This document shows positions 9,231 through 25,488 of a DNA stretch of 54,918 bases, piece by piece. The notes under the pieces were generated by a model, which saw only the letters and a program-made list of their open reading frames with translations, was not told the origin of the DNA and ran no database searches. The position numbers were made by a program, and so were the translations under genes. The number at the start of each line of letters is the position of its first letter. The stretch's first letter is position 1. The DNA is from Parabacteroides sp. (GTDB lineage: Bacteria > Bacteroidota > Bacteroidia > Bacteroidales > Tannerellaceae): positions 1 to 54,918 of the forward strand of contig JAGBDR010000053.1 of the NCBI GenBank assembly GCA_017937385.1, in the 5' to 3' direction.

Positions 9231-11423
9231 ATGTCAATCTCACGCTTCAATGCAGTGGAGAAAGCATCCAACCGAAAGGCCGTGGAAGCCCTTACTCCCA
9301 ATCAGAAAGTATCCGAATATTACGGTGAGAACGTCTTTAACCGAAAGGCGATGCAAAAGTATCTCTCCAAAGAGACCTACAAAGCCCTGACTCATGCGAT
9401 CGACAACGGAACTCCTATCGACCGCGAAATCGCCAATCATGTGGCAGCAGGCATGCGCATGTGGGCACTGGAAAAAGGCGTCACCCACTACACGCACTGG
9501 TTCCAGCCGCTCACCGACGGGACCGCCGAGAAGCACGACGCTTTTGTCGAGCATGACGGAGGCGGCGGCATGATCGAAGAGTTCAGCGGCAAGCTGCTCG
9601 TCCAACAGGAGCCGGACGCCTCCAGCTTCCCCAACGGCGGATTGCGCAACACGTTTGAAGCCCGCGGCTATTCAGCCTGGGATCCCTCCTCTCCTGCGTT
9701 TATCGTAGACGACACGCTGTGTATCCCGACCGTATTCATCGCCTATACCGGTGAAGCATTGGACTACAAGACTCCGCTGATCCGTTCCATCGAAGCCCTG
9801 AACAAGGCGGCCAAGGAGGTCTGCCACTATTTCAACGAGGATGTCAACAAGGTCATCACCTATTTGGGATGGGAACAGGAATATTTCTTAGTAGACGAAG
9901 ACCTCTATTCCGCCCGGCCGGACCTGTCGCTGACGGAACGGACCCTCTTAGGACATGAAAGTGCCAAGAACCAGCAATTGGACGACCACTATTTCGGTGC
10001 CATCCCATCCCGCGTACAGGAGTTCATGAAAGATCTGGAAACAGAATGCTACAAGTTGGGTATTCCGGTCAAGACACGCCATAACGAGGTGGCCCCGAAT
10101 CAATTCGAGCTGGCGCCTATTTATGAGGAATGCAACCTCGCCAACGACCACAACCAACTCTTGATGTCGGTGATGAAACGGGTTGCCCGCCACCATAACT
10201 TCCGGGTGTTGCTCCACGAAAAACCGTTTATGGGTGTGAACGGCTCCGGCAAGCACTGCAACTGGTCGATGGGAACCGATACGGGCATCAACCTCTTCTC
10301 GCCGGGAAAAGACCGGGAAGACAACCTGCGTTTCATCACATTCGTGGTCAACTCGCTGATGGCCGTCTATAAATACAACGCTTTGCTGAAAGCCAGCATA
10401 GCTTCGGCCACCAACGCTCACCGTTTAGGAGCCAACGAAGCGCCTCCCGCCATCATCTCTTCTTTCTTGGGGACACAGATATCCGAGATCTTAGACAAAT
10501 TCGAGAACTGTTCCATCGAGGATGCCATCGAGGTGGACGACAAGAAACGCCTGCACTTGGGCTTCGGGCAAATTCCGGAGTTGTTGTTGGACAATACGGA
10601 CCGCAACCGTACCTCTCCTTTTGCCTTCACCGGAAACCGTTTCGAATTCCGTGCTTTGGGATCGTCGGCCAACTGCGGCTCAGCCATGTTGGCACTGAAC
10701 TCCGCCGTCGCCTACCAGCTCCGCCAGTTCAAACAAGATGTCGAGGCCCTGCGTGCCGAAGGGAAGAGCAAGGAGGCTGCCATCTTCGAAGTACTGAAAG
10801 CCTACATCAAAGAATCCAAGCCGATCCGCTTCGACGGAAACGGGTATGGCGACGAATGGAAAGAAGAAGCGGCCCGCCGCGGACTGGACTGCGAGAACAG
10901 CGTCCCGTTGCAATACGATGCCTACCTGAAACCGGAAGTCATCCGGATGTTCAAGGAAACCGGCGTATTGAGCGAAAAGGAACTGGAAGCCCGCAACGAA
11001 GTGAAATGGGAAATCTATATTAAAAAGGTACAGATCGAAGCCCGCGTCCTCGGCGACCTTTCGCTCAACCATATCATTCCGGTTGCCGTCCGTTACCAGT
11101 CACTGTTGTTGGACAACATCGCCAAGCTGAAAGAGACATTCGGCGGATACCCGGAATACGACGATATGTCGGAAGAGCCCCGTCGCTTAGTCCGTAAGAT
11201 CGCCGGACATATCTGTTCCGTCACCCGCATGGTAGACGAAATGGTGGAAGCCCGTAAAAAAGCCAACCGCATCACGGATCTGCGCACCAAAGCGATTGCC
11301 TACCACGACACCGTCGCTCCCTACCTGGACGAAATCCGCAGCCATATCGACGATTTGGAACTGATGGTAGACAACCAGATGTGGCCGTTGCCCAAATACC
11401 GGGAACTGCTCTTCATCCGGTAA
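9231..11423 (+). CDS. glnN: Type III glutamine synthetase (GSIII)
   Basis: This 730-residue enzyme condenses ammonia and glutamate with ATP hydrolysis to make glutamine. The length (about 730 residues against about 450 for GSI) and the N-terminal domain (MSISRFNAVEKASNRK..., then GMRMWALEKGVTHYTHWFQPL) identify the GSIII class typical of Bacteroidetes. The catalytic motifs include WEQEYFLVD, PVKTRHNEVAPNQFELAP, KPFMGVNGSGKHCNWSMGTD and NRTSPFAFTGNRFEFRALGSS. The ATG at 9231 is chosen because the frame upstream runs through the -7 box. Nitrogen control is likely, and the repeat at 9073-9165 is a candidate site. Confidence 0.96.
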   Translation: MSISRFNAVEKASNRKAVEALTPNQKVSEYYGENVFNRKAMQKYLSKETYKALTHAIDNGTPIDREIANHVAAGMRMWALEKGVTHYTHWFQPLTDGTAEKHDAFVEHDGGGGMIEEFSGKLLVQQEPDASSFPNGGLRNTFEARGYSAWDPSSPAFIVDDTLCIPTVFIAYTGEALDYKTPLIRSIEALNKAAKEVCHYFNEDVNKVITYLGWEQEYFLVDEDLYSARPDLSLTERTLLGHESAKNQQLDDHYFGAIPSRVQEFMKDLETECYKLGIPVKTRHNEVAPNQFELAPIYEECNLANDHNQLLMSVMKRVARHHNFRVLLHEKPFMGVNGSGKHCNWSMGTDTGINLFSPGKDREDNLRFITFVVNSLMAVYKYNALLKASIASATNAHRLGANEAPPAIISSFLGTQISEILDKFENCSIEDAIEVDDKKRLHLGFGQIPELLLDNTDRNRTSPFAFTGNRFEFRALGSSANCGSAMLALNSAVAYQLRQFKQDVEALRAEGKSKEAAIFEVLKAYIKESKPIRFDGNGYGDEWKEEAARRGLDCENSVPLQYDAYLKPEVIRMFKETGVLSEKELEARNEVKWEIYIKKVQIEARVLGDLSLNHIIPVAVRYQSLLLDNIAKLKETFGGYPEYDDMSEEPRRLVRKIAGHICSVTRMVDEMVEARKKANRITDLRTKAIAYHDTVAPYLDEIRSHIDDLELMVDNQMWPLPKYRELLFIR

Positions 11424-11460
11424 CGTTCCTCCACCATCCCTTTTGGGCATAAAACCGTTC

Positions 11461-11522
11461 AACCTTTCATCCGTAACCTCTTACCAAATTCCAAACAGGT
11501 TACAGGTGAAAGGTTGTTTTTT
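11461..11522 (+). terminator. Terminator of the glutamine synthetase gene
   Basis: AACCTTTCATCCGTAACCT (11461-11479) pairs with AGGTTACAGGTGAAAGGTT (11497-11515) and is followed by GTTTTTTG. This is a long stem with a T-run. Confidence 0.85.
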
Positions 11523-11610
11523 GCCTGCACTTTCCTCACTTTCTCTTCAAAAAAACAGATAAAATTAAATCAAAAAGCCTTTTCAACAGTCCGATTCCCT
11601 TCCGTAACCA

Positions 11611-11917
11611 AGTTCTCGTAGGACTCAGGTGAAAACGGGAATGAGAAAACGTTTGAAAGTCTATTTTTACCCGTTTTAAACAAATCTTACTTACTGAAAC
11701 TTATAATTTGTTATTTCCGTTGCAAATATAAAGAATATATTTAATATGATGCGTTTTGTGTGAAAAAAAACTTTAGTTGCTGTGTAAAATATCATTTTGT
11801 TACTAAAATGCGGGTTTTGCGTTTACTTTGTTTGATTTAAGAGTGTAACTGTACAATTCTATGATTTCCGAATATCCAATTTGTTATGTGATTTAAAACC
11901 TGAGTCCTACGAGAACT
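11611..11917. promoter_or_regulatory. Candidate invertible promoter segment upstream of SusC/SusD
   Basis: A perfect 20-bp inverted repeat, AGTTCTCGTAGGACTCAGGT at 11611-11630 and its reverse complement at 11898-11917, encloses 267 bp of AT-rich sequence immediately before a SusC gene. The segment carries a perfect -7 box TATATTTG on the minus strand (11723-11730) that points away from SusC, and a weaker TTACTTTG (11823-11830) pointing towards it. This is the architecture of the recombinase-switched promoters known for Bacteroidales surface loci. No invertase gene lies in the window. If correct, the assembly may show the OFF orientation. Confidence 0.75.
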
Positions 11918-11973
11918 ACGTTACTTATAAGAGATACGAATTTATTTATACATTAATTTAATACAAAGTGTCT

Positions 11974-14900
11974 ATGAAACGAGTATTTTTTCTTATGTTG
12001 TGTTTGGTAACAAGCATGAACATAGTATTGGCTCAGAATCGCAAAATCACTGGAACGGTTATTTCAGCGGAAGACAATGAGCCGGTAATCGGAGCGGCAG
12101 TAGTCGTAAGAGGAACCCAAATCGGTATCGTAACCGATGTGGACGGCGTTTTCAGCTTAGAAGTGCCTTCCTCTGCCAAAACATTAGTAATCTCCTATTT
12201 AGGTATGAAGACGCAGGAAGTGGTCATCAAAGACGGACTGAAAATCATCCTGGAATCCGATTCCCAAAGCCTGGACGAAGTCGTAGTAACCGCCATGGGA
12301 TTAAATCGCGAGAAAAAATCATTAGGATATGCGATCCAGGAGGTAAAAGCGGACGAGTTGACGAAAGCGGGAAGTTCATCTATCACAAGTTCGTTGAGCG
12401 GAAAAGTCGCCGGAGTACAAGTAAACCAGTTCGGTGGATCGGTCGGTGCATCTTCTCGCATATCCGTACGTGGTAACTCATCTTTGAGCGCAGACCAGCA
12501 GCCGTTGATCGTAGTAGATGGTGTGCCCATTGCAAACGACACACAACGTTCAGGAGATAACGCCTACAACGGTGTCGACTATGGTTCTGGTCTGAACGAC
12601 ATTAACCCGGAAGACATCGAGTCGATCTCTGTACTGAAAGGAGGTTCAGCCGCACTGTACGGTATGCGTGCCGGTAATGGAGTAATCCTGATTACAACCA
12701 AATCTGGAAAAAGTTCAAACGGCGTAACCATTTCTTACGACATGAATGTAACAATGGACCGAGTAGCCAATCTCCCCAGATTCCAGAATTCGTATGGTCA
12801 AGGATTGTATGGTGAAGAATACTACTGGAAATATGGCGATCATTCCGATTTAAGCTATCAGGATTATGCCGTCAAATACGGTTATGATTACAATACGGGA
12901 GTAGGACAAGAAGATATGTCATGGGGACCTCGTCTGGACGCAGGATTAAAAATCAGCCAGTTCGACAGCAATGGCGAATATGTCGACTGGGTTTCCCGGC
13001 CAAACAACGTGAAAGATTTCTTCCAAACCGGTTTGACCATGAACCATGTCGTGTCCATACAAGCCAAAGGCGAAAAGGCGACTACACGTGCTTCACTTTC
13101 CTACCGTGACCAAAAAGGGACCATCCCCAACACGGACCAAAAGAAATACTCCGGTCAGGTGAATACGGAGATGAAACTAAACAAATACATCACGTTCAAT
13201 CTTTCAGCCAATTATACCCGTACCGAAAGTGACAACTTGGTCGGCCAAGGTTACGGAAGCAACAACCCGGTCGTTTCATTGGTAACATGGGCCGGCCGTC
13301 AGGTCAACATGAAATCTTTGAAAGAAAATTGGGCACAGAAAGATGCAGCCGGAAACTACACCTACTATAACTGGATTGACCAGTGGCACGTGAATCCTTA
13401 CTTTACGGTAAATGAAAACACGAACAGCTATCAGCGTGACCGTATTTTTGCAAAGTCTTCTTTGTTCTATCAGCCGTTTGAATGGTTGAAGTTTGAAGGA
13501 CGTATCGGTATGGATTATTACAATGCCAAGACGTTCGAACGCCATTATTATGACCGTGGCGACTATCCTGACGGTGCGTTCTTCCAGCGCAACACATCCA
13601 ACACAGAGTTGAATGCCGACATTATCGGTACAATCAACAAAAACTTCGGTGATTTCAACCTGAGCGGTGTCGTAGGTGCCAACTACCGTGATTTGAACTA
13701 CGAAACCCATCAACTTGGAGCCAGTGCTCTGACCGTTCGGGGCGTTTATACATTAGCAAATGCATCCGGTGCCGTAACAGCCAATATGGACCATAGCCAC
13801 ATCCGTTCGAATTCCGTATATGCCAACGCTTCTTTAGGTTGGAAAAACCAATTGTATATGGATGTCAGTGCCCGTAATGACTGGAGTTCTACCATCCGCG
13901 AAGCGTTTTTCTACCCGTCTATCAGCTTGAGCTGGATTCCGACCGCTTCATTCGAGAACTTACAGAATGATGTATTGACTTTCTGGAAGTTGCGTGGAGG
14001 TATTGCTCAGATTGGTTCGGCTACATCAGCCTACCGTAACAACTATTACTACTATGCGGAAAGCAATTCATTCAACGGTGTCTCACAGATGTACAAGAGT
14101 TTCGGTTATCCTAACTACAATTTGAAACCGGAAAGTATCACAACCTGGGAAATCGGTACGGAAGTCGGCCTGTTCGATGATCGTCTGCATTTCGATTTGG
14201 CCTACTACCAGAAACAGACCAAAGATCAGATTTTATCTGTATCGACTTCCAACGTAGTCGGTTTTGGTTCCATGCTGGTCAATGCAGGACGGATTGACAA
14301 CAAGGGTGTCGAACTTCAGGTAAGAGGCGACATCATCCGTAGTAAGAAAGACGGTTTCAATTGGAGCTCGACATTAAACTTTGCCAAAGACAGAAGCAAG
14401 GTTGTAGAACTGTATAATGATCCGGAAACAGGTAAAACTTTATTGGATACGTATGGATTAGGTTGGACTTGGGGTATCGCGACTCAAGCGAAAGTCGGTG
14501 AAAAATGGGGTGCTTTGGTTGCTGACGGATTCAAGCGTATAAGCCAGGATGATGTGACAGCCGGAACTGCGACAGCCGACCAAATCGGTGCGATCAAATT
14601 GCTTTCAAACGGAGCTTTGGACGCTGAAGCTTCCAAAGTGATCGGTAACGTGACTCCCGACTTCATGATGGGATGGCGCCATGACTTCACATATAAAAAT
14701 TTCGGTTTCGGCTTCTTGCTTGACTTGCGTATCGGTGGTGACATCTGGTCACAGACTATGTCTCACTCTTACCAGACTGGTGTGGCAAAAGTAACAGCCG
14801 AGAACGGAATCCGCGAACGGCCTATCATTGCAGGTAAAGACGTTTTGACAAACGAACGTTTCGTTATGCCGGATGCCAACGGGCATTATGTAGAAAACAC

Positions 14901-15225
14901 GATTGAAACCGATGCCTTTTCCTGGTTTAATGGAAACAACGTAGCGGAAATGTATGTTTTTGACGGTTCGTTCCTGAAACTGCGCGAAGTTTATCTCTCG
15001 TATGATGTTCCGAAATCTATCTTAAACAAGACGAAGTATTTCAATCGTGCGACAATCTCATTGATCGGAAACAATTTGGCTTTGCTTTGGGTACACTCTT
15101 CCAATACATTGCGTATCGATCCGGAATCGGGTGGTGTAGCAAGTGACAGCCGCGGTGTCGGTCTGGAACAGTCTTCAACTCCGGGTTCACGCAGTTTCGG
15201 TCTTAAGTTAGGTTTGACATTTTAA
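11974..15225 (+). CDS. SusC/RagA-family TonB-linked outer-membrane transporter
   Basis: This protein of about 1083 residues imports a ligand captured by its SusD partner across the outer membrane. It has a signal peptide (MKRVFFLMLCLVTSMNIVLAQ), a carboxypeptidase-regulatory-like domain (GTVISAEDNEPVIGAAVVV), the SusC signature LDEVVVTAMGLNREKKSLGY near residue 105, a plug domain (ISVRGNSSL, LIVVDGVP, INPEDIESISVLKGGSAALYG) and a long barrel ending in SFGLKLGLTF. It lacks an STN domain, so FecIR-type signalling is unlikely; control probably comes from the candidate invertible promoter. The ATG at 11974 is preferred to the GTG two codons earlier. SusD follows after 18 bp. The ligand is unknown. 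Confidence 0.95.
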   Translation: MKRVFFLMLCLVTSMNIVLAQNRKITGTVISAEDNEPVIGAAVVVRGTQIGIVTDVDGVFSLEVPSSAKTLVISYLGMKTQEVVIKDGLKIILESDSQSLDEVVVTAMGLNREKKSLGYAIQEVKADELTKAGSSSITSSLSGKVAGVQVNQFGGSVGASSRISVRGNSSLSADQQPLIVVDGVPIANDTQRSGDNAYNGVDYGSGLNDINPEDIESISVLKGGSAALYGMRAGNGVILITTKSGKSSNGVTISYDMNVTMDRVANLPRFQNSYGQGLYGEEYYWKYGDHSDLSYQDYAVKYGYDYNTGVGQEDMSWGPRLDAGLKISQFDSNGEYVDWVSRPNNVKDFFQTGLTMNHVVSIQAKGEKATTRASLSYRDQKGTIPNTDQKKYSGQVNTEMKLNKYITFNLSANYTRTESDNLVGQGYGSNNPVVSLVTWAGRQVNMKSLKENWAQKDAAGNYTYYNWIDQWHVNPYFTVNENTNSYQRDRIFAKSSLFYQPFEWLKFEGRIGMDYYNAKTFERHYYDRGDYPDGAFFQRNTSNTELNADIIGTINKNFGDFNLSGVVGANYRDLNYETHQLGASALTVRGVYTLANASGAVTANMDHSHIRSNSVYANASLGWKNQLYMDVSARNDWSSTIREAFFYPSISLSWIPTASFENLQNDVLTFWKLRGGIAQIGSATSAYRNNYYYYAESNSFNGVSQMYKSFGYPNYNLKPESITTWEIGTEVGLFDDRLHFDLAYYQKQTKDQILSVSTSNVVGFGSMLVNAGRIDNKGVELQVRGDIIRSKKDGFNWSSTLNFAKDRSKVVELYNDPETGKTLLDTYGLGWTWGIATQAKVGEKWGALVADGFKRISQDDVTAGTATADQIGAIKLLSNGALDAEASKVIGNVTPDFMMGWRHDFTYKNFGFGFLLDLRIGGDIWSQTMSHSYQTGVAKVTAENGIRERPIIAGKDVLTNERFVMPDANGHYVENTIETDAFSWFNGNNVAEMYVFDGSFLKLREVYLSYDVPKSILNKTKYFNRATISLIGNNLALLWVHSSNTLRIDPESGGVASDSRGVGLEQSSTPGSRSFGLKLGLTF

Positions 15226-15243
15226 CCAGTAAATTATCAAGTT

Positions 15244-16743
15244 ATGAGCAATAAATATAAAATTTGGGCAGTATCGCTTGCAGCGATGGTTGCCACGGGA
15301 TGTACAGGATCCTTTGAAGAAATAAATACGGATCCAGACGCATATAGCAAAGTTCCTTACACGAATATGCTGGCAAATGTATTGCGTAGAACGGCCGATC
15401 AGTATGGTGGCGACTTAGACATCGCGCAATGGGCCGGTTATGTATCGGAAGTCCAGTATCTGAATAATTACGGAGGTTACATCCCTTCCAACAACACGTA
15501 TGGAAACCGCTGGTATCAAACCTATTGGGGGCATACGCAGCTGCAAGACATCCTGGATCAGACGGAAGCAGAACCGGAAGGAAATAAAAACATGCGAAAT
15601 GTTTGTACGCTTATGCAAAGCTACCTGATTCTGATGTGTACGGATTGTTTCGGCGACATTCCTTATTCTGAAGCGTTTAAAGGAGCTCCGGAAGCTGGTG
15701 GTATCCTGAAAGCTTCTTATGATGCGCAATCGGACATCTACCCGAAAATCCTGGCAAACCTGAAAACGGTGGCTGACAGTTGGGCGGACGGTTTGGGCAG
15801 CGATGCACTGGGCGATGGTGATTTCTTGTATGGAGGAAATGTAGCAAAATGGCAGAAATTCTGCAATTCTTTACGTTTGCGCGTTGCTATGCGTATATCA
15901 GGTGTTTATCCGGCATCCCAAAGCATCGTTGAAGAAATACTCACGAACCCATCCCGGTATCCATATATCACCGAATGCAAAGACAATGCTTATTTCTGGT
16001 GGCAAGGCTCCGGTGATTATTTCGAACGTTATTACAGCAACTTCAGAACACGTGATGACGACGGTATGGCTGAAATCTTTATCGATCATCTGAAAAAGAT
16101 GGAAGATCCCCGCTTGGCAGTTGTAGCAAAACCGGCAAAGAACGACGGGGAATACCGCGGATTTGAAAACGGTGCCGCCGCCGCTCCTGCATCGATCCAC
16201 GATATCTCGCGCATCGGAGTCAAATATCGTGAAGATCCGGCCGGTTTCTCACCTTTCTACCGGGCATGTGAAAACTATTTCATCATGGCAGAAGCAGCTC
16301 TGAACGGCTGGAATGTTCCGATGAGCGCGGAAGAAGCATATGAACAAGGTGTACGTCTTTCTATGGAAGACAACGATCTGGATGCTGCTACGGCTGACGC
16401 CTATTTAGCCGGAAAAGGTAAGTGGGATGGAACCAAAGACCGTTTGTATTTCGAATGGTGGGTTGCCCTGTTCAAGCAGAACATCGAGGCTTGGTCGTTG
16501 TATCGCAGAACCGGCTATCCGACTTATATTCACACTGCCAAAGCAGCCGACGGAGTCACTCCGCAATATCCAGGTGCCCGTTCTACCTATAAAGGTATAC
16601 ACAACGATGTTCCGTTCCGTTTCCCTTATCCACAGAACGAATACTTGTATAACGAAGCAAATGTAAGAGCCGCAGCAGAAGGCATCCAAGACTATGTCTG
16701 GGGCAAACAGATGTGGTGGGACAAGCGTACAGATGTGAAATAA
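15244..16743 (+). CDS. SusD/RagB-family surface lipoprotein
   Basis: This 499-residue lipoprotein has a signal peptide with a lipobox (LAAMVATGC, Cys about residue 20) followed by GSFEEINTDPD. The TPR-like helices of the SusD fold are suggested by MQSYLILMCTDCFGDIPYSEAFKGAPE and by FYRACENYFIMAEAALNGWNV. The overall pattern is that of the SusD-like_2 subgroup, which caps the SusC pore. It is co-transcribed with SusC and ends in a strong terminator. No glycoside hydrolase gene follows in the same direction, so this pair may serve a non-glycan ligand. Confidence 0.92.
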   Translation: MSNKYKIWAVSLAAMVATGCTGSFEEINTDPDAYSKVPYTNMLANVLRRTADQYGGDLDIAQWAGYVSEVQYLNNYGGYIPSNNTYGNRWYQTYWGHTQLQDILDQTEAEPEGNKNMRNVCTLMQSYLILMCTDCFGDIPYSEAFKGAPEAGGILKASYDAQSDIYPKILANLKTVADSWADGLGSDALGDGDFLYGGNVAKWQKFCNSLRLRVAMRISGVYPASQSIVEEILTNPSRYPYITECKDNAYFWWQGSGDYFERYYSNFRTRDDDGMAEIFIDHLKKMEDPRLAVVAKPAKNDGEYRGFENGAAAAPASIHDISRIGVKYREDPAGFSPFYRACENYFIMAEAALNGWNVPMSAEEAYEQGVRLSMEDNDLDAATADAYLAGKGKWDGTKDRLYFEWWVALFKQNIEAWSLYRRTGYPTYIHTAKAADGVTPQYPGARSTYKGIHNDVPFRFPYPQNEYLYNEANVRAAAEGIQDYVWGKQMWWDKRTDVK

Positions 16744-16815: not shown

Positions 16816-16851
16816 AAGATGGCGGCTTGCGAAAGTCGCCATCTTTCTTTT
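16816..16851 (+). terminator. Terminator of the SusC/SusD operon
   Basis: AAGATGGCGGCTT pairs with AAGTCGCCATCTT around a GCGA loop (one G-U pair) and is followed by TCTTTTAAT. It marks the left edge of the AT-rich RiPP island. Confidence 0.85.
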
Positions 16852-16925
16852 AATCATACGTTCTATTGTTTAAGTTTATAAAAGCAATATTTTTTCAATA
16901 ATATGTTTTTTAACATGGCAAAAAA

Positions 16926-16957
16926 TTTGCTTATACAAAACAAGAATCATAAATTTG
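16926..16957 (+). promoter_or_regulatory. Promoter of the RiPP cluster
   Basis: TTTG (16926-16929), a 20-bp spacer and TAAATTTG (16950-16957) fit the Bacteroidetes consensus TTTG-N19/21-TAnnTTTG exactly. The 5' leader to the precursor ATG at 17013 would be about 50 nt. Confidence 0.75.
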
Positions 16958-17012
16958 AAAAATTAGACATTGATTTGTGTAATAGATTGTTTAACTTAAA
17001 AAATTAACACTT

Positions 17013-17162
17013 ATGGATTTTGAGGAAAAGGATCTCGTACAGATTCTAAATGATGCAGAAATGCTGACACAAGAAGAAATGCATGAAGTGGTAGGTGGTG
17101 CAGATCCTCCTCCATGTTCAGCCTGTTGTACTGCATATAATGGTGGTATCAACAAAGATTGA
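17013..17162 (+). CDS. RiPP precursor peptide with double-glycine leader
   Basis: This 49-codon gene starts at an ATG 55 bp after a consensus promoter and ends in TGA at 17160-17162. The N-terminal 29 residues (MDFEEKDLVQ..., then LTQEEMHEVVGG) form an acidic helical leader ending in Val-Gly-Gly, the cleavage site of C39 exporter peptidases. The predicted core is ADPPPCSACCTAYNGGINKD, with three Cys in a CxxCC arrangement after a triple proline. It is followed by a radical SAM/SPASM maturase and a C39 ABC exporter, which is the context of GG-type Bacteroidales natural-product precursors. The product's chemistry (for example a thioether bridge) and its activity are unknown. Its short length makes it easy to miss. 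Confidence 0.88.
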   Translation: MDFEEKDLVQILNDAEMLTQEEMHEVVGGADPPPCSACCTAYNGGINKD

Positions 17163-17170
17163 TGAAATGT

Positions 17171-17218
17171 AAACTCCAAATGGGGAAAGTACTTTTTAAA
17201 TGCTCCCATTTGGAGTTT
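17171..17218 (+). promoter_or_regulatory. Intercistronic hairpin after the precursor gene
   Basis: AAACTCCAAATGGG (17171-17184) and its exact complement CCCATTTGGAGTTT (17205-17218) form a 14-bp stem 8 nt after the precursor stop. No T-run follows. It probably protects or partly terminates the short precursor transcript so that the precursor is made in excess of the maturase. Confidence 0.75.
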
Positions 17219-17260
17219 AGATACAATCTTAATACTAATACAAATACAAATTTAATTAAT

Positions 17261-18721
17261 ATGAAACGATATATTCTGAATCCACGATATGTCTTACGTA
17301 GTGAAGGCAACAAAGTATATATATTAGTTGATCATAAATATCAATTAGAAGCTTATTTATCTGTTATACATCCGATTTTTGCCATGATATTATCATTCTT
17401 TAAAGGTGGTTTATTATGTGATATACTGGATGAAATATCCACATTTTTTCAATTAGAAAAATCAAAAATTGAAAAATTAGTAACTCCTTTATTGGAAAAT
17501 AAAAATGTAATAACAAATGGAAGTTCCGCATTTCCTAAACAGATAATCATTGAATACAAAGAAGATATTCCTATTCATAATTATTCTCCCTTTGATTTCA
17601 AATACAAAGATATTGATCTTCAGATATCTAGATTTAAAGCTCCTTCTGATATTATTTGTAATATAACTATGAAATGTTTAACTTCATGTATATATTGTTA
17701 TGCAGATAGGGCTGGCAATCAAAACAAAACAATGCCAATAACTCTTTTAGAGAAAATCATAAAAGAGGCTAAAGAACTTAAAGTCGTCCGATTTCGTTTA
17801 ATGGGGGGTGAAGTTCTATTATATAAAGAGTGGGAAGCCATCTTAAAAAAAATGGCAGAATTAGACTTTCAGCCATCAATATCAACAAAGATACCATTAA
17901 CGGAAAGACATCTTGATATTATTCGAACCTTGGACTTAAATAAATCACCAATTCAATTTTCGTTAGATACAATGATAAAGGATCATTTGTATCAGATCCT
18001 AAATATCAAAGATCCTTATTATGATAATATGATAAAATGCTTTGATTTAATGGAAAAATATAATATGGATTATATGATACATACTGTACTTACAAATAAG
18101 AATGACAGCATAAAAGATATTGAGAGTTTGATTAGTTTTTTTAATCATAGAAAAAATATAAAACGTTGGTTCTTAGATACAGCAAAATGTTCTATGTATA
18201 TAGGTAAGGAGTATAAAACTTATAAATCTACTATTTCTAATATCAATGCAATCAGAGAATATTTAACATCTTTAATAAAAGAGGATTTTTTTGATTATGA
18301 AGTAAAATTGCCTGTAATCATCCCAAACGTTAATAATATTTCAAAAGAAGAAAAAAAAGAGAAATTTGAAAAACGCACAATGTGTGCCGGTAACTTAAAT
18401 GCTTTATATATTCTCCCAGATGGAAAAGTTACTATATGTGAAGAACTTTATTGGCATCCTCGATTCATATTGGGGGATTTGAATAAGCAAAGTCTATCTG
18501 AAATTTGGAATTCACAGAAAGCCAATGATCTTTTTTATATAAAACAAAATGATATTCAAAAAAGCAGCCCATGTGCATCATGCGAAGACTTCAAAGAATG
18601 CCATAGCTATAAGCACCTATGCTGGAGAGATGTCATTTGGGCATACGGGATGGAAAAATGGGACTATCCAGACCCTTATTGTCCCAAAGCTCCTCATATA
18701 GAAAAAGATATAACACTTTAA
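17261..18721 (+). CDS. Radical SAM/SPASM peptide maturase
   Basis: This 486-residue enzyme is expected to modify the precursor peptide. Residues about 1-110 resemble a PqqD-like leader-binding (RRE) domain (YVLRSEGNKVYILVD, then LEKSKIEKLVTPLL). The radical SAM core begins at CLTSCIYC, a CxxxCxxC motif at residues 139, 143 and 146 that binds the [4Fe-4S] cluster cleaving S-adenosylmethionine, followed by RLMGGEVLL. The C-terminal SPASM domain has many Cys from about residue 375 (MCAGN, VTICEE, PCASCEDFKECHSYKHLC, PYCPKAP) for auxiliary clusters. The ATG at 17261 is chosen; an earlier in-frame start at 17159 would read through the hairpin. Its base composition is strikingly AT-rich. Confidence 0.9.
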   Translation: MKRYILNPRYVLRSEGNKVYILVDHKYQLEAYLSVIHPIFAMILSFFKGGLLCDILDEISTFFQLEKSKIEKLVTPLLENKNVITNGSSAFPKQIIIEYKEDIPIHNYSPFDFKYKDIDLQISRFKAPSDIICNITMKCLTSCIYCYADRAGNQNKTMPITLLEKIIKEAKELKVVRFRLMGGEVLLYKEWEAILKKMAELDFQPSISTKIPLTERHLDIIRTLDLNKSPIQFSLDTMIKDHLYQILNIKDPYYDNMIKCFDLMEKYNMDYMIHTVLTNKNDSIKDIESLISFFNHRKNIKRWFLDTAKCSMYIGKEYKTYKSTISNINAIREYLTSLIKEDFFDYEVKLPVIIPNVNNISKEEKKEKFEKRTMCAGNLNALYILPDGKVTICEELYWHPRFILGDLNKQSLSEIWNSQKANDLFYIKQNDIQKSSPCASCEDFKECHSYKHLCWRDVIWAYGMEKWDYPDPYCPKAPHIEKDITL

Positions 18722-18738
18722 ACATAAAAAAACAGAGC

Positions 18739-21045
18739 ATGAAATGTTTTCTACAAATTATCATTCTATTATCATTTTCCTTTGTGTCATTTGCACAAAA
18801 TAAATATGAGGGGAAAGTTATTGATGATGAAGGGAAAGTAATTCCTCTTGCAAATATCGTGTTGTTATCGGCAACAGATTCTTCTTTCATCAACGGCACG
18901 ACAAGTGGACAAGATGGTCGTTACATTTTGGAATCAGAATTTTGTGAAGGTTGTTTACTTCGTTTTTCTTCCATTGGTTATCAAACAATTTATACAGACG
19001 GTTTAAGTCAAACGACCATTCTGCCGAAGTCATCTTACGCATTAGAGGAAATTGCCATTTCTACACAACGTCCTGTTTATCGAATAAAAAGTACCGGATT
19101 TATCGCAGAAATAAGCGGTAGCCTATTAGAAAATACAGGAACAGCCAATGATGTACTAAAACAGTTACCAGGAGTTATCTACAACAATGGCAAGTTCGAA
19201 ATATTTGGCAAAGGAACGGCAACTATCTATATCAACAACAAACAAGTACGAGATGAAGCAGAACTGGAACGTTTAAATTCTGAAAACATTGTATCAGTCG
19301 AGTTAGTAAACAATCCGGGAATCCGTTATGATTCAGATGTACGTGCTGTATTGAAAATTTGTACCAAAAGGAAATACGAAGGTTTTGCCTCTCGAATACG
19401 CCTACGTGGAACACAAAACCATCGTTTTTCAAACTTAGAACAACTTGACATGAGTTATACGACCGATGAAATCAATTGGTACGGGCTTATGTCACATAAT
19501 GCTCCCAACAGCCAGATAGATGGACGAAACAACATAACAATTCGCAATAACAACGGTACAATCTATGATCTATGCTCTAACATGGAAGACTGGAAACAAA
19601 CAGCCCATTTTGCGACATTGGCTACCGGAATGGGAATAAGGTTAGCCCAAGGACATGAAATAGGTACTTCCTACACATACGATTACTCGAACAGTACCTA
19701 TGAAGGATTTGACATCGAAAAGCTCTTGTCCAATAACACAGAAATCAGTCGTTTGTCCAATTTCTCTTTTTCAAACAATAAATACAATCAACACAATATC
19801 AACATCTATTATACTGGTAACCTCGGAGAACACACGGTTATGAATTTGAATGCAGACTATGTACATCGGGATGCAGATAGCCGAGGTAAAGTTAAAGAAG
19901 AAGAAAAAGGACAAACACGGACAGTGACTTCAATCAATAATTCTATTTACAATCTATATGCAGTCAAAGTTGCTGTAAACCAAACAATCGGCAAGAACAC
20001 GTTGGAAACTGGTCTGGATTTCAGCTATATGGATTATGATCAAACATTTTTGAATAAAGAGAACTATCTTCCTAATGGTCTATTTTCTTCCGCTGAAACA
20101 AAAATTGCCGGATTTGTGAATTACGGAATGCAATTGGGGATTCTTAAAGTAGAAGCTGGCCTGCGTTACGAATATTTTCATGCTAAGTATTATGAAGAGG
20201 ACCCAGAAATACCATTACTCACTCGCACTTACAAAGAATTATATCCAACTGCATCCTTATCATTGCCAATCGATAAAATTAATTTTTCATTGTCCTATTC
20301 CAAACGAACAGCCCGCCCCTCTTTTTATCAACTGCGTAATGGAATCGAATATACAAGTATCTATCTTTATTCACAAGGAAACCCATATTTACGCTCCAGC
20401 CAATTGCATGATATATCGCTAAATACTGGTTATCGTTTTTTCTTTCTGTCATTAGGCTATTCTTATACGAAAGACCGGATGGTCATGGCAGACCACCTTT
20501 TGAATAGTAACCCTTTTACGTTAGTGTTATCGCATCAAAATATATCTCATTATCAAGGTATCAATGGAATGTTGACATTCAAACGCCAAATAGGACTATG
20601 GAATCCTGCTTGGACAGTCGCTATATACAAAGATTACCTTAATCTATATGACGACAAAGGACGTAAAATCAAATTAGGACAACCATACGGTTACGTTGCA
20701 CTGAATAACATGTTTACCTTTCCTAAAGGTTTCATCCTGAATATAGATGGAACGGGCATGACTTCTGGTAATAGTGGAGAAGTATTTATGAAACCAACCA
20801 TGTCGTTAAATTGGGGTATCCGAAAAAGTTTCCTGAAAGGAGCATTAGAGCTAGATTTGCAGTTTCAAGATGTGCTACATACTTCAAAAAGGAAGATGAT
20901 CATTCATACTGAACATGCTAATTATTATCGATGGAATTACAACGATTCTCGCCTGATACGCCTTTCTATTGTTTACAAATTCAATACTTACACAAAAAAA
21001 TACAAAGGAAAAAATTCTGCACAAAGTGAGGTTTGGAGAATGTAA
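18739..21045 (+). CDS. Outer-membrane beta-barrel protein of the RiPP cluster
   Basis: This 768-residue protein has a signal peptide (MKCFLQIIILLSFSFVSFAQ), a carboxypeptidase-regulatory-like domain (YEGKVIDDEGKVIPLANIVLL, about residues 23-100), a plug-like region (ANDVLKQLPGVIYNNGKFEIFGKGTA and RLNSENIVSVELVNNPG), then a barrel with many aromatic strands. The pattern fits the OMP_b-brl_3 family of TonB-receptor-like proteins. It starts 17 bp after the maturase gene. It could pass the mature peptide through the outer membrane or act as a receptor or immunity factor; the sequence does not decide. The start at 18739 is set by the signal peptide, since the longer frame overlaps the maturase. 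Confidence 0.85.
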   Translation: MKCFLQIIILLSFSFVSFAQNKYEGKVIDDEGKVIPLANIVLLSATDSSFINGTTSGQDGRYILESEFCEGCLLRFSSIGYQTIYTDGLSQTTILPKSSYALEEIAISTQRPVYRIKSTGFIAEISGSLLENTGTANDVLKQLPGVIYNNGKFEIFGKGTATIYINNKQVRDEAELERLNSENIVSVELVNNPGIRYDSDVRAVLKICTKRKYEGFASRIRLRGTQNHRFSNLEQLDMSYTTDEINWYGLMSHNAPNSQIDGRNNITIRNNNGTIYDLCSNMEDWKQTAHFATLATGMGIRLAQGHEIGTSYTYDYSNSTYEGFDIEKLLSNNTEISRLSNFSFSNNKYNQHNINIYYTGNLGEHTVMNLNADYVHRDADSRGKVKEEEKGQTRTVTSINNSIYNLYAVKVAVNQTIGKNTLETGLDFSYMDYDQTFLNKENYLPNGLFSSAETKIAGFVNYGMQLGILKVEAGLRYEYFHAKYYEEDPEIPLLTRTYKELYPTASLSLPIDKINFSLSYSKRTARPSFYQLRNGIEYTSIYLYSQGNPYLRSSQLHDISLNTGYRFFFLSLGYSYTKDRMVMADHLLNSNPFTLVLSHQNISHYQGINGMLTFKRQIGLWNPAWTVAIYKDYLNLYDDKGRKIKLGQPYGYVALNNMFTFPKGFILNIDGTGMTSGNSGEVFMKPTMSLNWGIRKSFLKGALELDLQFQDVLHTSKRKMIIHTEHANYYRWNYNDSRLIRLSIVYKFNTYTKKYKGKNSAQSEVWRM

Positions 21046-21102
21046 ATATTCACCGGATATTAATATATTTTAATACAATATTTTCAATTAATATAGCTCA
21101 AA

Positions 21103-23322
21103 ATGATCAAGACGAAATTTCCATATATTAAACAACCCGATGCAATGGAGTGTGGAGCTACATGCCTTCGAATGATCTGCCGGTACTACGGCAAAGAATA
21201 TTCAGCAGAAACAATGCAGAATTTGTGTATTGTTACACGTGAAGGTGTTTCGTTACTCAACGTGAGCGATGCAGCCGAGTTACTGGGATTTCGGACCGTA
21301 TGTGGAAAAATCACATTGGAAAAAATGAAAGAAAAACGTCCTTTCCCATGTATCTTACACTGGAACCAAATACATTTTGTAATCTTGTATGATATAAAAG
21401 TCAAAAAGAACAATAAAATTTTTTTCTGTATAGCAGATCCAGGAAAAGGTCTATTGGAATTGGACGAAGAATCATTTAAAGAAGCTTGGATCAGTACTAG
21501 TAGCAATGGGAAAGAAAAGGGAATTTTGATGGTTCTGCAACCAACTCCGGATTTTTATGAAAAAGAAGATGAGAGAAGAATGGAAAAGGATATTTTCCAC
21601 TTTTTATATGGATATATAAAACCTTATCAACGTTTTGTATTCCAATTGCTATTAGGTCTTGTATTAGGAAGCATGCTACAACTATTGTTTCCTTTTCTCA
21701 CACAAGCTATCGTGGACAAAGGAATCGCTGGAAAAAATCTAAATCTGATTTATCTTATATTAACTGGACAGTTAATATTGGTATTGAGTCGAGCTTCCGT
21801 AGATTTCATGCGCCGTTGGATTTTGCTACATATCAGTATGCGAGTCAACATCTCTTTATTATCTGATTTTTTAATCAAACTGATGCGGTTGCCAATGCCA
21901 TTTTTCGACACAAAAATGACAGGAGATCTTTTACAACGCATCGGAGATCACGAACGAGTGGAACGATTTTTAACTGCGCAAACGTTAAGCGTCATTTTTT
22001 CATTTTTCAGTGTAATTGTCTTCGGAGGTATTTTACTCTATTATAATCTGCTGATTTTTCTAATATTTTTATTTGGAAGTCTTTTATACGCAGGTTGGGT
22101 CACACTGTTTTTAAAAAAGCGTCGTTTGTTAGATTACCAAAAATTCGAACAACGATCTCGTAGTCAAAGTAAAATAATGCAATTGCTAAATGGTATGCAG
22201 GAGATCAAGTTGCAAAATTGTGCACGGCGTCAGCGATGGGAGTGGGAAGACATACAAGCCGATTTATTCCAAACAGATTTGACATCCATGCAATTACAAC
22301 AAAGTCAAGAAGCAGGTAGTATATTTATTAATGAAATCAAAAACATTATAATTACTATTATGGCTGCAACTTCTGTAATCAATGGAAATTTATCACTAGG
22401 TATGATGTTATCCATACAATATATTATCGGCCAACTAAACGCTCCTATCGAACAATTCGTTCAATTCATTTATGGTTGGCAGGACGTACAAATCAGTTTG
22501 GAACGAATGAGTGAAATCAGGGAACGAGAAGAAGAAGAAACAAATGAACGTACAATAACCTCATTCCCAAATAAAGGAGAAAAACATGATATAGAACTGC
22601 GAAATATAACCTTCCAATATGAAGGAGTCCATTCGCCAAAAGTTTTAGATGATATTTGCCTAATTATTCCAGAAGGTAAAATAACAGCAATTGTTGGAAC
22701 AAGTGGTAGCGGAAAAACTACACTTATCAAGCTACTACTCGGATATTATAACCCAACTAATGGATCTATACTAATAGGGAAAAATGACTTAAATAATTTC
22801 AATTTACGTTGGTGGCGTAATCAATGCGGTGCCGTTATGCAAGATGGCTATATTTTTACAGAATCAATTGCGAGAAACATTGCAGTAGGAGATAAAGATA
22901 TTGATCAGTCACGCTTGTTATTGGCTGCCCGTGTTGCCAACATTGATGAGTTTATCATGCGACTACCACTAAAATATAATACCATTATTGGACAAGACGG
23001 ACAAGGAATGAGCCAAGGACAAAGGCAGCGAATTTTAATAGCACGCGCAGTTTATAAAAATCCTTCTTATCTATTTTTCGATGAAGCAACCAATTCGTTA
23101 GATTCTAATAACGAACATGCTATATCAAAAAATTTAACAGGATTTTATAAAGGGAAAACCGTTATAATCGTTGCTCATCGACTTAGTACAGTTCGTAATG
23201 CAGATCAAATTGTTGTTTTGGAAAAAGGAAGGATTTCTGAAATTGGAAATCATACGTTCTTGATAAAACAGAAAGGAACTTACTATAATTTAATACAGAA
23301 TCAATTGGAATTAAGTAATTAA
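21103..23322 (+). CDS. C39 peptidase-containing ABC exporter (PCAT)
   Basis: This 739-residue inner-membrane protein cleaves double-glycine leaders and exports the core peptide. The N-terminal C39 peptidase shows QPDAMECGATCLRM with catalytic Cys17, then HFVIL with His91 and IADPG with Asp112. A transmembrane domain covers about residues 160-460 (FQLLLGLVLGSMLQLLFPF, FSVIVFGGILLYYNLLIFL). The nucleotide-binding domain has Walker A GTSGSGKTT near 532, the signature MSQGQRQRI near 637, Walker B YLFFDEATNSLD near 658 and the switch His in VAHRLST. It is complete. It normally works with an HlyD-type adaptor, which here survives only as a stub. Confidence 0.95.
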   Translation: MIKTKFPYIKQPDAMECGATCLRMICRYYGKEYSAETMQNLCIVTREGVSLLNVSDAAELLGFRTVCGKITLEKMKEKRPFPCILHWNQIHFVILYDIKVKKNNKIFFCIADPGKGLLELDEESFKEAWISTSSNGKEKGILMVLQPTPDFYEKEDERRMEKDIFHFLYGYIKPYQRFVFQLLLGLVLGSMLQLLFPFLTQAIVDKGIAGKNLNLIYLILTGQLILVLSRASVDFMRRWILLHISMRVNISLLSDFLIKLMRLPMPFFDTKMTGDLLQRIGDHERVERFLTAQTLSVIFSFFSVIVFGGILLYYNLLIFLIFLFGSLLYAGWVTLFLKKRRLLDYQKFEQRSRSQSKIMQLLNGMQEIKLQNCARRQRWEWEDIQADLFQTDLTSMQLQQSQEAGSIFINEIKNIIITIMAATSVINGNLSLGMMLSIQYIIGQLNAPIEQFVQFIYGWQDVQISLERMSEIREREEEETNERTITSFPNKGEKHDIELRNITFQYEGVHSPKVLDDICLIIPEGKITAIVGTSGSGKTTLIKLLLGYYNPTNGSILIGKNDLNNFNLRWWRNQCGAVMQDGYIFTESIARNIAVGDKDIDQSRLLLAARVANIDEFIMRLPLKYNTIIGQDGQGMSQGQRQRILIARAVYKNPSYLFFDEATNSLDSNNEHAISKNLTGFYKGKTVIIVAHRLSTVRNADQIVVLEKGRISEIGNHTFLIKQKGTYYNLIQNQLELSN

Positions 23323-23332
23323 TAAAATTCAT

Positions 23333-23521
23333 ATGGACTACGAACAAATGAAACGGCAAGCAATAGAAGAGCAGAATAAGATTGAATTGCGCAGTGAAAG
23401 AATCCGTAATATAATCGGCCAAATGCCTCCATTTTTGGTTCGATGGGGAAATACATTGTTATTGTTTCTATTGTTGTTAGTGGCATTTCTTTTTATAGTA
23501 TCAGATTTTTTGCCGATATAA
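23333..23521 (+). pseudogene. Truncated HlyD-family secretion adaptor (N-terminus only)
   Basis: The 62 codons read as the start of a type I secretion adaptor: a basic/acidic helix with IELRSERIRNIIGQMPPFLVRWG, then a single membrane span (NTLLLFLLLLVAFLFIV) and SDFLPI followed by TAA. Full-length relatives continue for some 350 residues with lipoyl and helical-hairpin domains; none of that follows here. The next gene starts 9 bp later with a different, GC-richer composition, so the gene seems cut by a recombination or deletion at about 23505-23530. A natural 62-residue membrane protein is possible but less likely. It starts 10 bp after the exporter. Confidence 0.75.
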
Positions 23522-23529
23522 ATGATAAT

Positions 23530-25488
23530 ATGGGAAAAATACCGTTCGTCATCTTATCCGCCTGTTTCACTTGCTACCTGTACGCACAGCAAGCGACGGA
23601 AATCACACGCGACTCTATCGTGAAAGTCTTGCAAGCGACTTTTCCCGAACCCCAATCTTTTGCTGTTTATGCCCACACGGACCGTTCGGTCTATTATGCC
23701 GGTGAAACCATTTGCTGGAAATTATATCCGGTCGATCGGGGACAGGACGGAAAACAGGAATCATTTCCCACGCTTTTTGCCGTTCTTTCCGACCGGCAGG
23801 ATTCACGGGTACAAACCATAAAAATCTCCGACCGGATCAACGACAACGATACGTTTCTGAAATTGCCCGATACCATCCAAGCCGGCTTTTATACGTTTGC
23901 TCTATTGACAGATACATTCAGCATGGACAAGGCTCTTTTTCGAAAGGAACTGCAAATCCTTCCCAAAGGCGACGGAGTCTTTCCTACGGTGGAAGATTAT
24001 GAGGTCGAGTTCTATCCGGAAGGCGGCAAACTGTTGGGCGGAACGGCCTGCCGTGTCGCATTTCGGGCGGAGAATTCAAGGAAACAACCGGTAGCCATCA
24101 GCGGGCATATCCAAAACCTATACGGAGACACTTGCGCACGCTTGTCAAGTTCAAGCGGCGGGATCGGAAGTTTTTCTTTTGTCCCGCAAACAGGCATGGA
24201 TTATTTCCTGGTTTGCCAAAATGCAGACCGTTTGCCGAAGACCTGTCCGCTTCCCAAAGTAGAGGCAACCGGAGAAGCATTGGCCGCCGGTTGGAAAAAG
24301 GATCTCTTGATCGTTTCCCGCAAAACGGGAGGCGACGTAGACCGCAAGGCGATCCGTTACCTGTCGGTCTGCTCGGAACAAGCCTTGCTCTTCTGGAACC
24401 AATGGGATCCGGACAAAGAATATTTCTTTTTCCGGCAAGCGCAATTACCGGACGGGCCGTTACAACTTGTCTTGTATGACGAATCTTTGCGTATTGTAAG
24501 CCAGCGTTCCGTCTTCTCCGGAGCCGACAAGAAGTTGGCGCATACGACCGTGCAGGTAGAAAAACAGTCGCTTGCCGGTCCCGTCAAGCGACTGTCCGGC
24601 CAAATAAAGGTGACAGACCGGTCCGGAAAGCCGTTGGCATGTAACCTGTCGGTTTCCATCATCGCTTTCCCTGACTCTTCCGGATATACACCGGACGGTT
24701 CTCTGTGGAGAACCTGTTGCTTGCCGGCAACAGGATGGGACTTCAGCCCCTCGCTGTTCACCTATATGGGAAATGAAGGTACCCTGTCCACCCAGGCCTT
24801 GGACGACCTGATGCTGACCTTGAAACCGGGACAGCCGAAAGATACCACTACTTCCCCAACACACGACATCGACAAACACATCTACTTAGATCCGGTAGAG
24901 GTCAAAGCTTTCGCTATCTCCAAAAAGAAACACGACACCTCCTATTCGGCATTCGCTGACCTGCATATCGGCCGTAAAGAGATAGAACAACGGAAACTTA
25001 CGGAGGTCACTCAAGTCTTCCGGGGCTACCCGAGTATCCGTATCATGCCGGACCGGACACTTCGTATACGGGGAGCGACCACGACTCCCTTGATCGTCAT
25101 CGATGACATACCGTTGAGTTACACAGTTTCCGTGGAAAGATGGTTGGAGAATCCGCCGTTGGAGCAGTTGTCGATCGAGGATATCGAACGGATCGACGTG
25201 ATACAGGGAGCACGTGCCGCCATCTTCGGCATGTACGGAGGGAGTGGTGTCGTGTGCATCACCACCCGCACAGGAAAGTCGGATCAAGAGAAAAACGTCT
25301 CTTCCGCCATCGACGAGCCGGCCATCCGGACACTTTTCTGGCAACCAGACCTAAAAACGGATGCCCACGGAACAGCCAGCTTTTCACTCCCTGCCCTCAT
25401 CCACCCTTCCGACAAGATCCAAATCCAAATCGAAGGATTTTCTTTAGACGGAACCGGAACCGTCGTATTCGGGTTACATGAAAAATAA
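23530..25488 (+). CDS. TonB plug-domain protein without a barrel
   Basis: This 652-residue exported protein has a signal peptide (MGKIPFVILSACFTCYLYAQQ), then macroglobulin-like beta-domains (VYAHTDRSVYYAGETICW near residue 45), and near residues 470-585 a plug-like domain (LRIRGATTTPLIVIDDIPL, IEDIERIDVIQGARAAIFGMYGGSGVVCITTRTG). It ends in another beta-domain (GTASFSLPALIHPSDK) and has no beta-barrel. Such MG2/plug proteins occur in Bacteroidetes but their role is not established; some members are longer, so loss of an internal part cannot be excluded. Its composition matches the host, unlike the cluster just upstream, so the two are probably unrelated in origin. Confidence 0.8.
   Translation: MGKIPFVILSACFTCYLYAQQATEITRDSIVKVLQATFPEPQSFAVYAHTDRSVYYAGETICWKLYPVDRGQDGKQESFPTLFAVLSDRQDSRVQTIKISDRINDNDTFLKLPDTIQAGFYTFALLTDTFSMDKALFRKELQILPKGDGVFPTVEDYEVEFYPEGGKLLGGTACRVAFRAENSRKQPVAISGHIQNLYGDTCARLSSSSGGIGSFSFVPQTGMDYFLVCQNADRLPKTCPLPKVEATGEALAAGWKKDLLIVSRKTGGDVDRKAIRYLSVCSEQALLFWNQWDPDKEYFFFRQAQLPDGPLQLVLYDESLRIVSQRSVFSGADKKLAHTTVQVEKQSLAGPVKRLSGQIKVTDRSGKPLACNLSVSIIAFPDSSGYTPDGSLWRTCCLPATGWDFSPSLFTYMGNEGTLSTQALDDLMLTLKPGQPKDTTTSPTHDIDKHIYLDPVEVKAFAISKKKHDTSYSAFADLHIGRKEIEQRKLTEVTQVFRGYPSIRIMPDRTLRIRGATTTPLIVIDDIPLSYTVSVERWLENPPLEQLSIEDIERIDVIQGARAAIFGMYGGSGVVCITTRTGKSDQEKNVSSAIDEPAIRTLFWQPDLKTDAHGTASFSLPALIHPSDKIQIQIEGFSLDGTGTVVFGLHEK

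Follow-up and report, generated by a model that had tools for sequence, protein, structure and literature searches.

Bacteroidales carry gene clusters for ribosomally synthesized and post-translationally modified peptides (RiPPs) in which a radical S-adenosylmethionine (rSAM) enzyme is combined with a peptidase-containing ATP-binding cassette transporter (PCAT); passages of Fernandez-Cantos et al. 2023 (PMC10352776) describe such clusters, including biosynthetic gene cluster 2 (BGC2) of P. vulgatus. In the same passages BGC6–9 hold PCAT and outer-membrane protein genes with no detectable membrane fusion protein (MFP), and it is asked how BGC6–9 export their products. Here we describe a compact, foreign-looking operon in a Bacteroidales bacterium, Parabacteroides sp., on a DNA stretch of 54,918 nucleotides (JAGBDR010000053.1, positions 1 to 54,918; contig 45 of a 3.73-Mb assembly in 128 contigs), which in its full length is called the window in the following. 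Five genes, all on the plus strand, follow one another in the order precursor peptide, rSAM/SPASM maturase, outer-membrane barrel of the TonB-dependent transporter (TBDT) type, PCAT, and a 62-residue open reading frame (ORF). That this is a RiPP biosynthetic operon, from which a modified peptide is made and exported by the PCAT, we regard as very highly probable. The complete explanation, a five-gene RiPP operon with a reduced adaptor and the barrel as exit, is the best we can offer and seems to us reasonably probable. An earlier note on the window had already proposed a leader-guided rSAM peptide exported by a PCAT, which stands as the best reading given the conserved precursors and a leader that fits the consensus. 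The note's rSAM/SPASM enzyme, outer-membrane barrel and C39-peptidase exporter are borne out by Pfam matches on the same strand. Its list of four genes was thus right, while the fifth gene (23333–23521), a reduced adaptor, had been overlooked and the plug of the barrel had gone unnoticed.

Like P. vulgatus BGC2 as described there, the window combines a precursor with a double-glycine (GG) leader, an rSAM maturase and a PCAT in one cluster. The rSAM enzyme of P. vulgatus ATCC 8482 (locus L159) is 32% identical to the window maturase. We assume that L159 is the BGC2 of that study. In contrast to the window, L159 has a core of the CGLGCYTGG type, an adaptor of 381 residues and no barrel on the PCAT strand within 4 kb. 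With type 1 secretion of the colicin V type, composed of PCAT, MFP and TolC, the window shares the C39-ABC exporter, the GG leader and a remnant of the MFP N-terminus; it differs in that its MFP has no periplasmic part and that no TolC-type gene was detected beside the PCAT with a profile that is insensitive. A role of TBDT proteins in export has precedents. Oar, a TBDT, is needed for the secretion of PopC across the outer membrane in Myxococcus, according to passages of PMC6434023; its cargo is a protein, and we liken it to the window barrel by role alone. Passages of PMC8939145 propose TBDT-related proteins as graspetide exporters, and there, as in the window, a TonB-linked pfam14905 barrel with a proposed export role lies in Bacteroidetes RiPP loci. 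Those loci, unlike the window, are of the ATP-grasp type, and the passages hold nothing on reduced adaptors. Titles and abstract openings of open-licence PMC papers contained neither a CxxCC precursor family nor a HlyD adaptor reduced to one helix, which leaves absence from print unproven. We think that the reduced adaptor and the plugged TBDT-type barrel are the more unusual features. They offer a candidate answer to the puzzle raised by passages of PMC10352776, namely Bacteroidales RiPP clusters with a PCAT and an outer-membrane protein and no recognisable MFP, since reduced adaptors could be the undetected MFPs of BGC6–9. Should the barrel prove to be the exit, gut bacteria would be using proteins of the TBDT type to export small modified peptides.

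Precursor and maturase

The precursor gene (17013–17162, plus strand) starts with ATG and encodes 49 residues; ORF, translation and VVGG leader agree with what the earlier note had reported. The 29-residue leader (17013–17099) ends with VVGG and carries L at −12, E at −8 and M at −7, which fits the PCAT leader consensus Leu(−12)-x3-Glu(−8)-Leu(−7)...GG given in passages of PMC8277102. The core ADPPPCSACCTAYNGGINKD, which together with the stop codon covers 17100–17162, shows the motif C-x-x-C-C-x4-G-G. Homologous loci were collected by a contig scan. With the window maturase alone as query, none of the 16 pattern-matched stretches was a relative; with an eight-sequence alignment 167 of 189 were confirmed, and the best 80 of these 167 were kept, corresponding to 79 distinct loci. 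The nearest maturases found are 55% (L091), 50% (L092), 47% (L093) and 46% (L094) identical to that of the window, and in all four loci (three of them also carry the labels L023 for L091, L025 for L093 and L026 for L094) a short GG-leader CxxCC ORF begins 205–301 nt ahead of the maturase ORF. Homologous short ORFs beside orthologous maturases, on which the earlier note had made its reading depend, are hence present in every one of the loci (5/5, with the window among them) that were found to have a maturase of at least 46% identity. The five aligned cores, PPPCSACCTAYNGG, MRACSCCCTEKNGG, GPVCAVCCSENNGG, EEKCASCCQLALGG and EQKCGACCQLLGGG, have C-x-x-C-C and a Gly pair four residues further on as their invariant residues.

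At the nucleotide level, the proportion of synonymous differences (pS) exceeds that of non-synonymous differences (pN) in all ten precursor pairs (0.59–0.89 vs 0.24–0.53; 0.78 vs 0.24 for L093/L094 and 0.89 vs 0.45 for window/L091), these being raw proportions with pS near saturation. Judged by its sequence, the precursor gene is genuine. The three Cys and the Gly pair are the invariant core residues, which makes the three Cys plausible sites of modification. Membership in the GG-Bacteroidales precursor family did not hold. The precursor resembles TIGR04149 (GG_sam_targ_CFB) in its GG leader, its rSAM neighbour and its occurrence in Bacteroidota, but reaches only 15.1 bits against a cut-off of 25, and the other four CxxCC precursors gave no match to this model. 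Indeed, none of the five scores above the cut-off of any NCBIfam model (the Pfam search covered the window precursor), and CxxCC-x4-GG defines a compact precursor family that escapes the NCBIfam models at their cut-offs. A strict GG-precursor filter returned candidates in 30 of the 79 loci, some of them probably spurious, and missed the precursor of L091, which was recovered separately under L023. More distant maturases accompany other Cys patterns; in Phocaeicola vulgatus and its relatives, for example, the pattern is CGLGC[YF]. Near the CxxCC precursor, two of the five loci hold a second GG-leader peptide with a Cys-free core of the pattern W...GR-(x)W-(I/V)R (L091:5592–5714 and L093:7152–7346); no such pattern was found in the window. 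We also considered a 34-residue ORF of the window (16903–17007) as a second precursor and rejected it: it has no GG, its part from 16918 on has no family match, and a candidate promoter lies inside it.

The maturase (17261–18721, plus strand, 486 residues; PF04055 9e-14, PF13186 6e-13) was listed as an ORF from 17159 and likely starts at the ATG at 17261. Its predicted fold is SuiB/SkfB-like including the N-terminal domain, the alignments starting at model residue 4 for SuiB and 8 for SkfB; it thus shares with both the arrangement of an RRE-like (RiPP recognition element) N-domain, radical SAM and SPASM. We take the N-terminal domains of SuiB and SkfB to be RREs. From the model, residues 1 to about 110 of the maturase may form such an RRE-like domain; at the sequence level no RRE family matched the enzyme. 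SuiB joins Lys and Trp. Since the aligned identity to SuiB and SkfB is 14–16% and the window core has no Trp, their chemistry is not transferable. A sactipeptide or ranthipeptide would carry a Cys-to-carbon thioether; of the features that bear on this, the Cys residues are conserved, and the maturase scores 23.9 of 340 bits on the PapB model and 24.3 of 300 bits on the SkfB model. Relatives of the maturase occur in 5/123 genomes of the family (E≤1e-20) and in 12/393 genomes of the order (E≤1e-25), its own genome counted in both cases. In a tree of 78 rSAM sequences the maturases of the five CxxCC loci all fall to the same side of a branch supported at 100/100. We base the RiPP operon reading on these five orthologous precursor–maturase pairs, the 100/100 branch, the PCAT-type leader and the SuiB/SkfB-like fold. 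The RRE-like domain would bind the acidic leader, and the radical SAM/SPASM core would then modify the 20-residue CxxCC core; a Cys-derived thioether is the leading candidate for this modification, which we put forward with somewhat less than even confidence. A search of plasmids (5 records) gave a partial maturase match in Phocaeicola massiliensis (OY725993.1:9548–9862; 22% of the query, 50.5% identity).

Exporter, adaptor and barrel

The PCAT (21103–23322, plus strand, 739 residues) carries the C39 peptidase domain (PF03412, 2.3e-26) together with PF00664 and PF00005, and so a C39-type exporter is paired with a matching GG leader. It is the only full PCAT found in its genome (one match at E≤1e-100); one further, partial PF03412 match lies on contig C3. 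From what is known of the family, the PCAT in all likelihood cuts after VVGG and moves the product across the inner membrane. The gene that follows (23333–23521, plus strand) encodes a 62-residue mini-adaptor of the HlyD type, with an N-terminal cytosolic motif (IELRSERIRNIIGQMPP), one hydrophobic helix and no periplasmic domain. It has no Pfam or NCBIfam match at E≤1. Against a profile of 438 positions, built solely from 13 full-length adaptors, it matches positions 5–45 (E 2e-13 among 11 sequences), and the periplasmic domain that in a HlyD MFP follows the membrane helix is missing. By its sequence, then, the 62-residue protein is the N-terminus of a HlyD-type adaptor without the parts that reach TolC.

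The same truncation recurs elsewhere. All 11 short proteins (47–71 residues, most of them first picked with a related profile) match the profile solely within positions 2–59 (E 2e-16 to 4e-5 for the set of 11), the weakest match being that of L198. A second reduced class of about 150–230 residues keeps part of the periplasmic domain and, by eye, apparently has no hairpin. Reduced adaptors of 159, 168, 61 and 67 residues had no Pfam match at E≤0.01, whereas a 435-residue adaptor matched HlyD_3. The window mini-adaptor is constrained at the protein level, because pN is far below pS in the pair with L091 (pS 0.92, pN 0.32); in closer pairs the changes are too few for a judgement (3 synonymous and 3 non-synonymous for L111/L118, 1 and 4 for the two L091 copies). 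Five of the 11 short adaptors (L111, L118, L154, L162 and L193, with L111 and L118 near-identical) end in a common tail L-[PS]-Y-P-Y-[SG]. On the P. distasonis NM39_I3 contig, two copies of a PCAT with a 61-residue mini-adaptor (L091:3–2376 and 9908–12305) flank maturase and barrel.

The barrel gene (18739–21045, plus strand, 768 residues; start corrected to the ATG at 18739) encodes a TBDT-type protein of the OMP_b-brl_3 family (PF14905, 2.5e-56, searched without the first residue) with a likely signal peptide, a CarboxypepD_reg-like N-domain, a plug and the barrel itself. The plug domain in the large barrel is seen in the predicted fold and by profile, with Pfam Plug below its cut-off (14.0 of 23.9). 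What is left of the HlyD adaptor, a cytosolic tail and a single membrane helix, would be expected still to dock on the PCAT, with TolC out of its reach. As such a remnant would be unable to reach TolC, the co-encoded barrel becomes the foremost candidate for the outer-membrane exit, probably in place of TolC, an assignment that we make with slightly less than even confidence. Support in hand for the explanation as a whole comes from gene content, homology, the conserved precursor motif, the predicted folds of maturase and barrel, and the protein-level constraint on the mini-adaptor. Stand-alone C39-like ORFs of 93, 141 and 140 residues were seen beside a second barrel gene at L093:3855, L093:6645 and L116:4402.

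Adaptor state and barrel across PCAT loci

We compared 74 PCATs from 57 of 148 Bacteroidales genomes, of which 63 remained after 11 contig-edge loci had been dropped. A barrel was counted if it lay up to 1 kb upstream or up to 2.5 kb downstream of the PCAT (first or 1-kb rule). Operons like L293, where precursor and maturase genes separate barrel and PCAT, escape this rule; a 4-kb rule was added afterwards, and both are reported. An adaptor state of "none" means that none was detected, and L198, so classed, later showed a 69-residue adaptor. Because some profile seeds come from loci that were counted later, detection and sample are not independent of each other. By the first rule, a barrel is present in 14 of the 22 loci with a short or no adaptor and in 4 of the 41 with a long one (Fisher p 1.3e-5, descent ignored); the short adaptors alone divide into 8 with and 5 without a barrel (p 4e-4, descent again ignored). 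With four further Bacteroidales PCATs (67 rows), loci with and without a barrel number 15 and 9 for short or none vs 4 and 39 for long adaptors, and under the 4-kb rule 17 and 7 vs 5 and 38. A PCAT tree built with a quick method contains a group of 12 (SH-aLRT 100) in which the adaptor is reduced or undetected in all 12 loci and our own profile finds a barrel within 4 kb in all 12.

Within this group, the maturases of L293, L193, L198, L210 and L294 are SPASM enzymes resembling TIGR04463, Clo7bot, CefB and PapB, all below the cut-offs; L083, outside the group, has a similar maturase and an adaptor of 164 residues. The exporter set is not bound to one maturase and occurs with two rSAM maturase groups. 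In L293 (1919–8373), whose genome belongs to the same family as Bacteroides ihuae, the operon starts with the barrel gene, followed by a GG precursor whose core is rich in Cys, then maturase, PCAT and a 47-residue mini-adaptor. One may speculate about a TolC-independent Bacteroidales peptide exporter, that is a PCAT clade with a single-helix adaptor of 47–71 residues or a hairpin-less one of 150–230 residues, passing RiPPs to a co-encoded outward TBDT-type barrel and serving two rSAM groups, a generalisation that we consider less likely than not. No TolC-type gene was found beside the PCATs in the 74 Bacteroidales loci and one in 52 class-level loci (L254), in both cases with the insensitive profile, which was made from five proteins of the window's own genome; the ORF after the PCAT of L220 looks TolC-like by eye and was missed by it. 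L222 and L223 have divergent PCATs on long branches with undetected adaptors, and in L222 a barrel gene follows directly.

Alternative explanations

A number of observations weigh against the reading of adaptor loss coupled to a barrel exit. On supported branches the tree offers only 4 independent contrasts (sign test p = 1), and the association of adaptor and barrel is mostly a single evolutionary event; the solid claim is therefore one PCAT clade with reduced adaptor and barrel, not a repeated association. Short adaptors occur without a barrel by the 1-kb rule in L200, L211, L087, L089 and L090 (in L087 the 4-kb rule does find one), neither adaptor nor barrel is seen in L206, L208 and L223, and a long adaptor stands with a barrel in L172, L179, L182 and L078. 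The barrel of L294 was called by our own profile and has no PF14905 match, the adaptor of L210 went undetected, and L081 has an interrupted PCAT frame, its listed stretch showing no maturase. Our own filter found no GG peptide in L193, L210, L294 and L083. Outside Bacteroidales, 50 usable loci of the 52 at class level comprise 46 long adaptors, 1 short and 3 none, with no barrel at all.

The window itself adds to this list, because its barrel keeps the plug and has, by predicted fold and profile, an importer-like architecture. The fold of a plugged TBDT would equally suit the same RiPP operon with a different division of labour, in which export runs via TolC and a full-length HlyD adaptor from genes outside the operon and the barrel is a receptor for re-uptake of the peptide, perhaps with metal, or serves self-protection. 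The Cys-rich cores could bind metal, and the genome has 35 matches to PF02321 (TolC type). In the 128-contig assembly a full adaptor elsewhere is possible, and C-terminal fragments of full-length adaptors lie at C105:10079–10294, C124:17934–18125 and C22:4–126, two of the three at contig ends. Yet the barrel tracks the adaptor state more than the maturase and stays with two rSAM groups; it is missing from 37 of the 41 long-adaptor loci (1-kb rule), though this pattern belongs mostly to one clade, and also from the distant relative L159 of P. vulgatus with its long adaptor. We consider re-uptake or self-protection a serious possibility that nevertheless falls well short of probable. That the 62-residue gene is merely a decaying remnant cut by an island edge, with an exporter that is non-functional or relies on another adaptor, would agree with its place at the boundary of the low-GC island, adjoining the higher-GC gene that starts at 23530, and with a 54-residue form in L200, outside the barrel clade. 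This is improbable in view of the pN far below pS for window/L091, the 61-residue counterpart present twice in P. distasonis NM39_I3, and the conserved sequence of the 47–71-residue forms in other loci. Very unlikely, finally, is the case in which the GG-leader peptide stays unmodified, as a bacteriocin or signal, and the maturase acts on another target: unmodified antimicrobial bacteroidetocins are known in Bacteroidales (cited in passages of PMC10352776), but core motif and maturase clade coincide, and the ORF list of the window holds no other GG-leader candidate beside the maturase. We keep the five-gene operon with reduced adaptor and barrel exit as the preferred explanation.

Expression signals and genomic setting

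A candidate Bacteroides-type promoter, TTTG-N20-TAAATTTG (16926–16957, plus strand), was found by pattern match 55 nt ahead of the start codon of the precursor gene; we take the TTTG-N20-type consensus to be that of Bacteroides promoters. The pattern has 2 matches in the window vs 0.88 expected from shuffling, and because about one chance match is expected per window this evidence is weak. A strong hairpin (17170–17219, plus strand) separates the precursor gene from the maturase gene; the region 17160–17262 folds with −26.5 kcal/mol (z −6.2), and 0 of 200 shuffles were as stable. Intergenic stems are present in four of the five CxxCC loci, namely the window, L091 (z −5.95), L092 (a 19-bp stem, without shuffle control) and L094 (z −2.2), while L093 has no stem in the 34 nt ahead of its ORF. 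A natural reading is that the hairpin acts as a leaky or partial terminator or as a processing site, possibly raising the precursor over the enzyme.

The five operon genes have 27–39% GC vs 43–57% in the adjoining genes, and the resulting low-GC island (16850–23525) is coincident with the operon and with the range 16852–23525 that the earlier note had delimited. The island looks horizontally acquired. No convincing direct repeats flank its ends, and an empty integration site was not found in 38 genomes of the genus; it is not demonstrable there, because the right-hand neighbour gene has only one other relative (39%) across these 38 genomes. This neighbour on the downstream side is an MG2/Plug protein (23530–25488, from library searches), and on the upstream side lies a SusC/SusD-like pair (11968–16743, named from the translations). 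A second GC dip, to 33–42%, is seen at 11.2–12.4 kb of the window.

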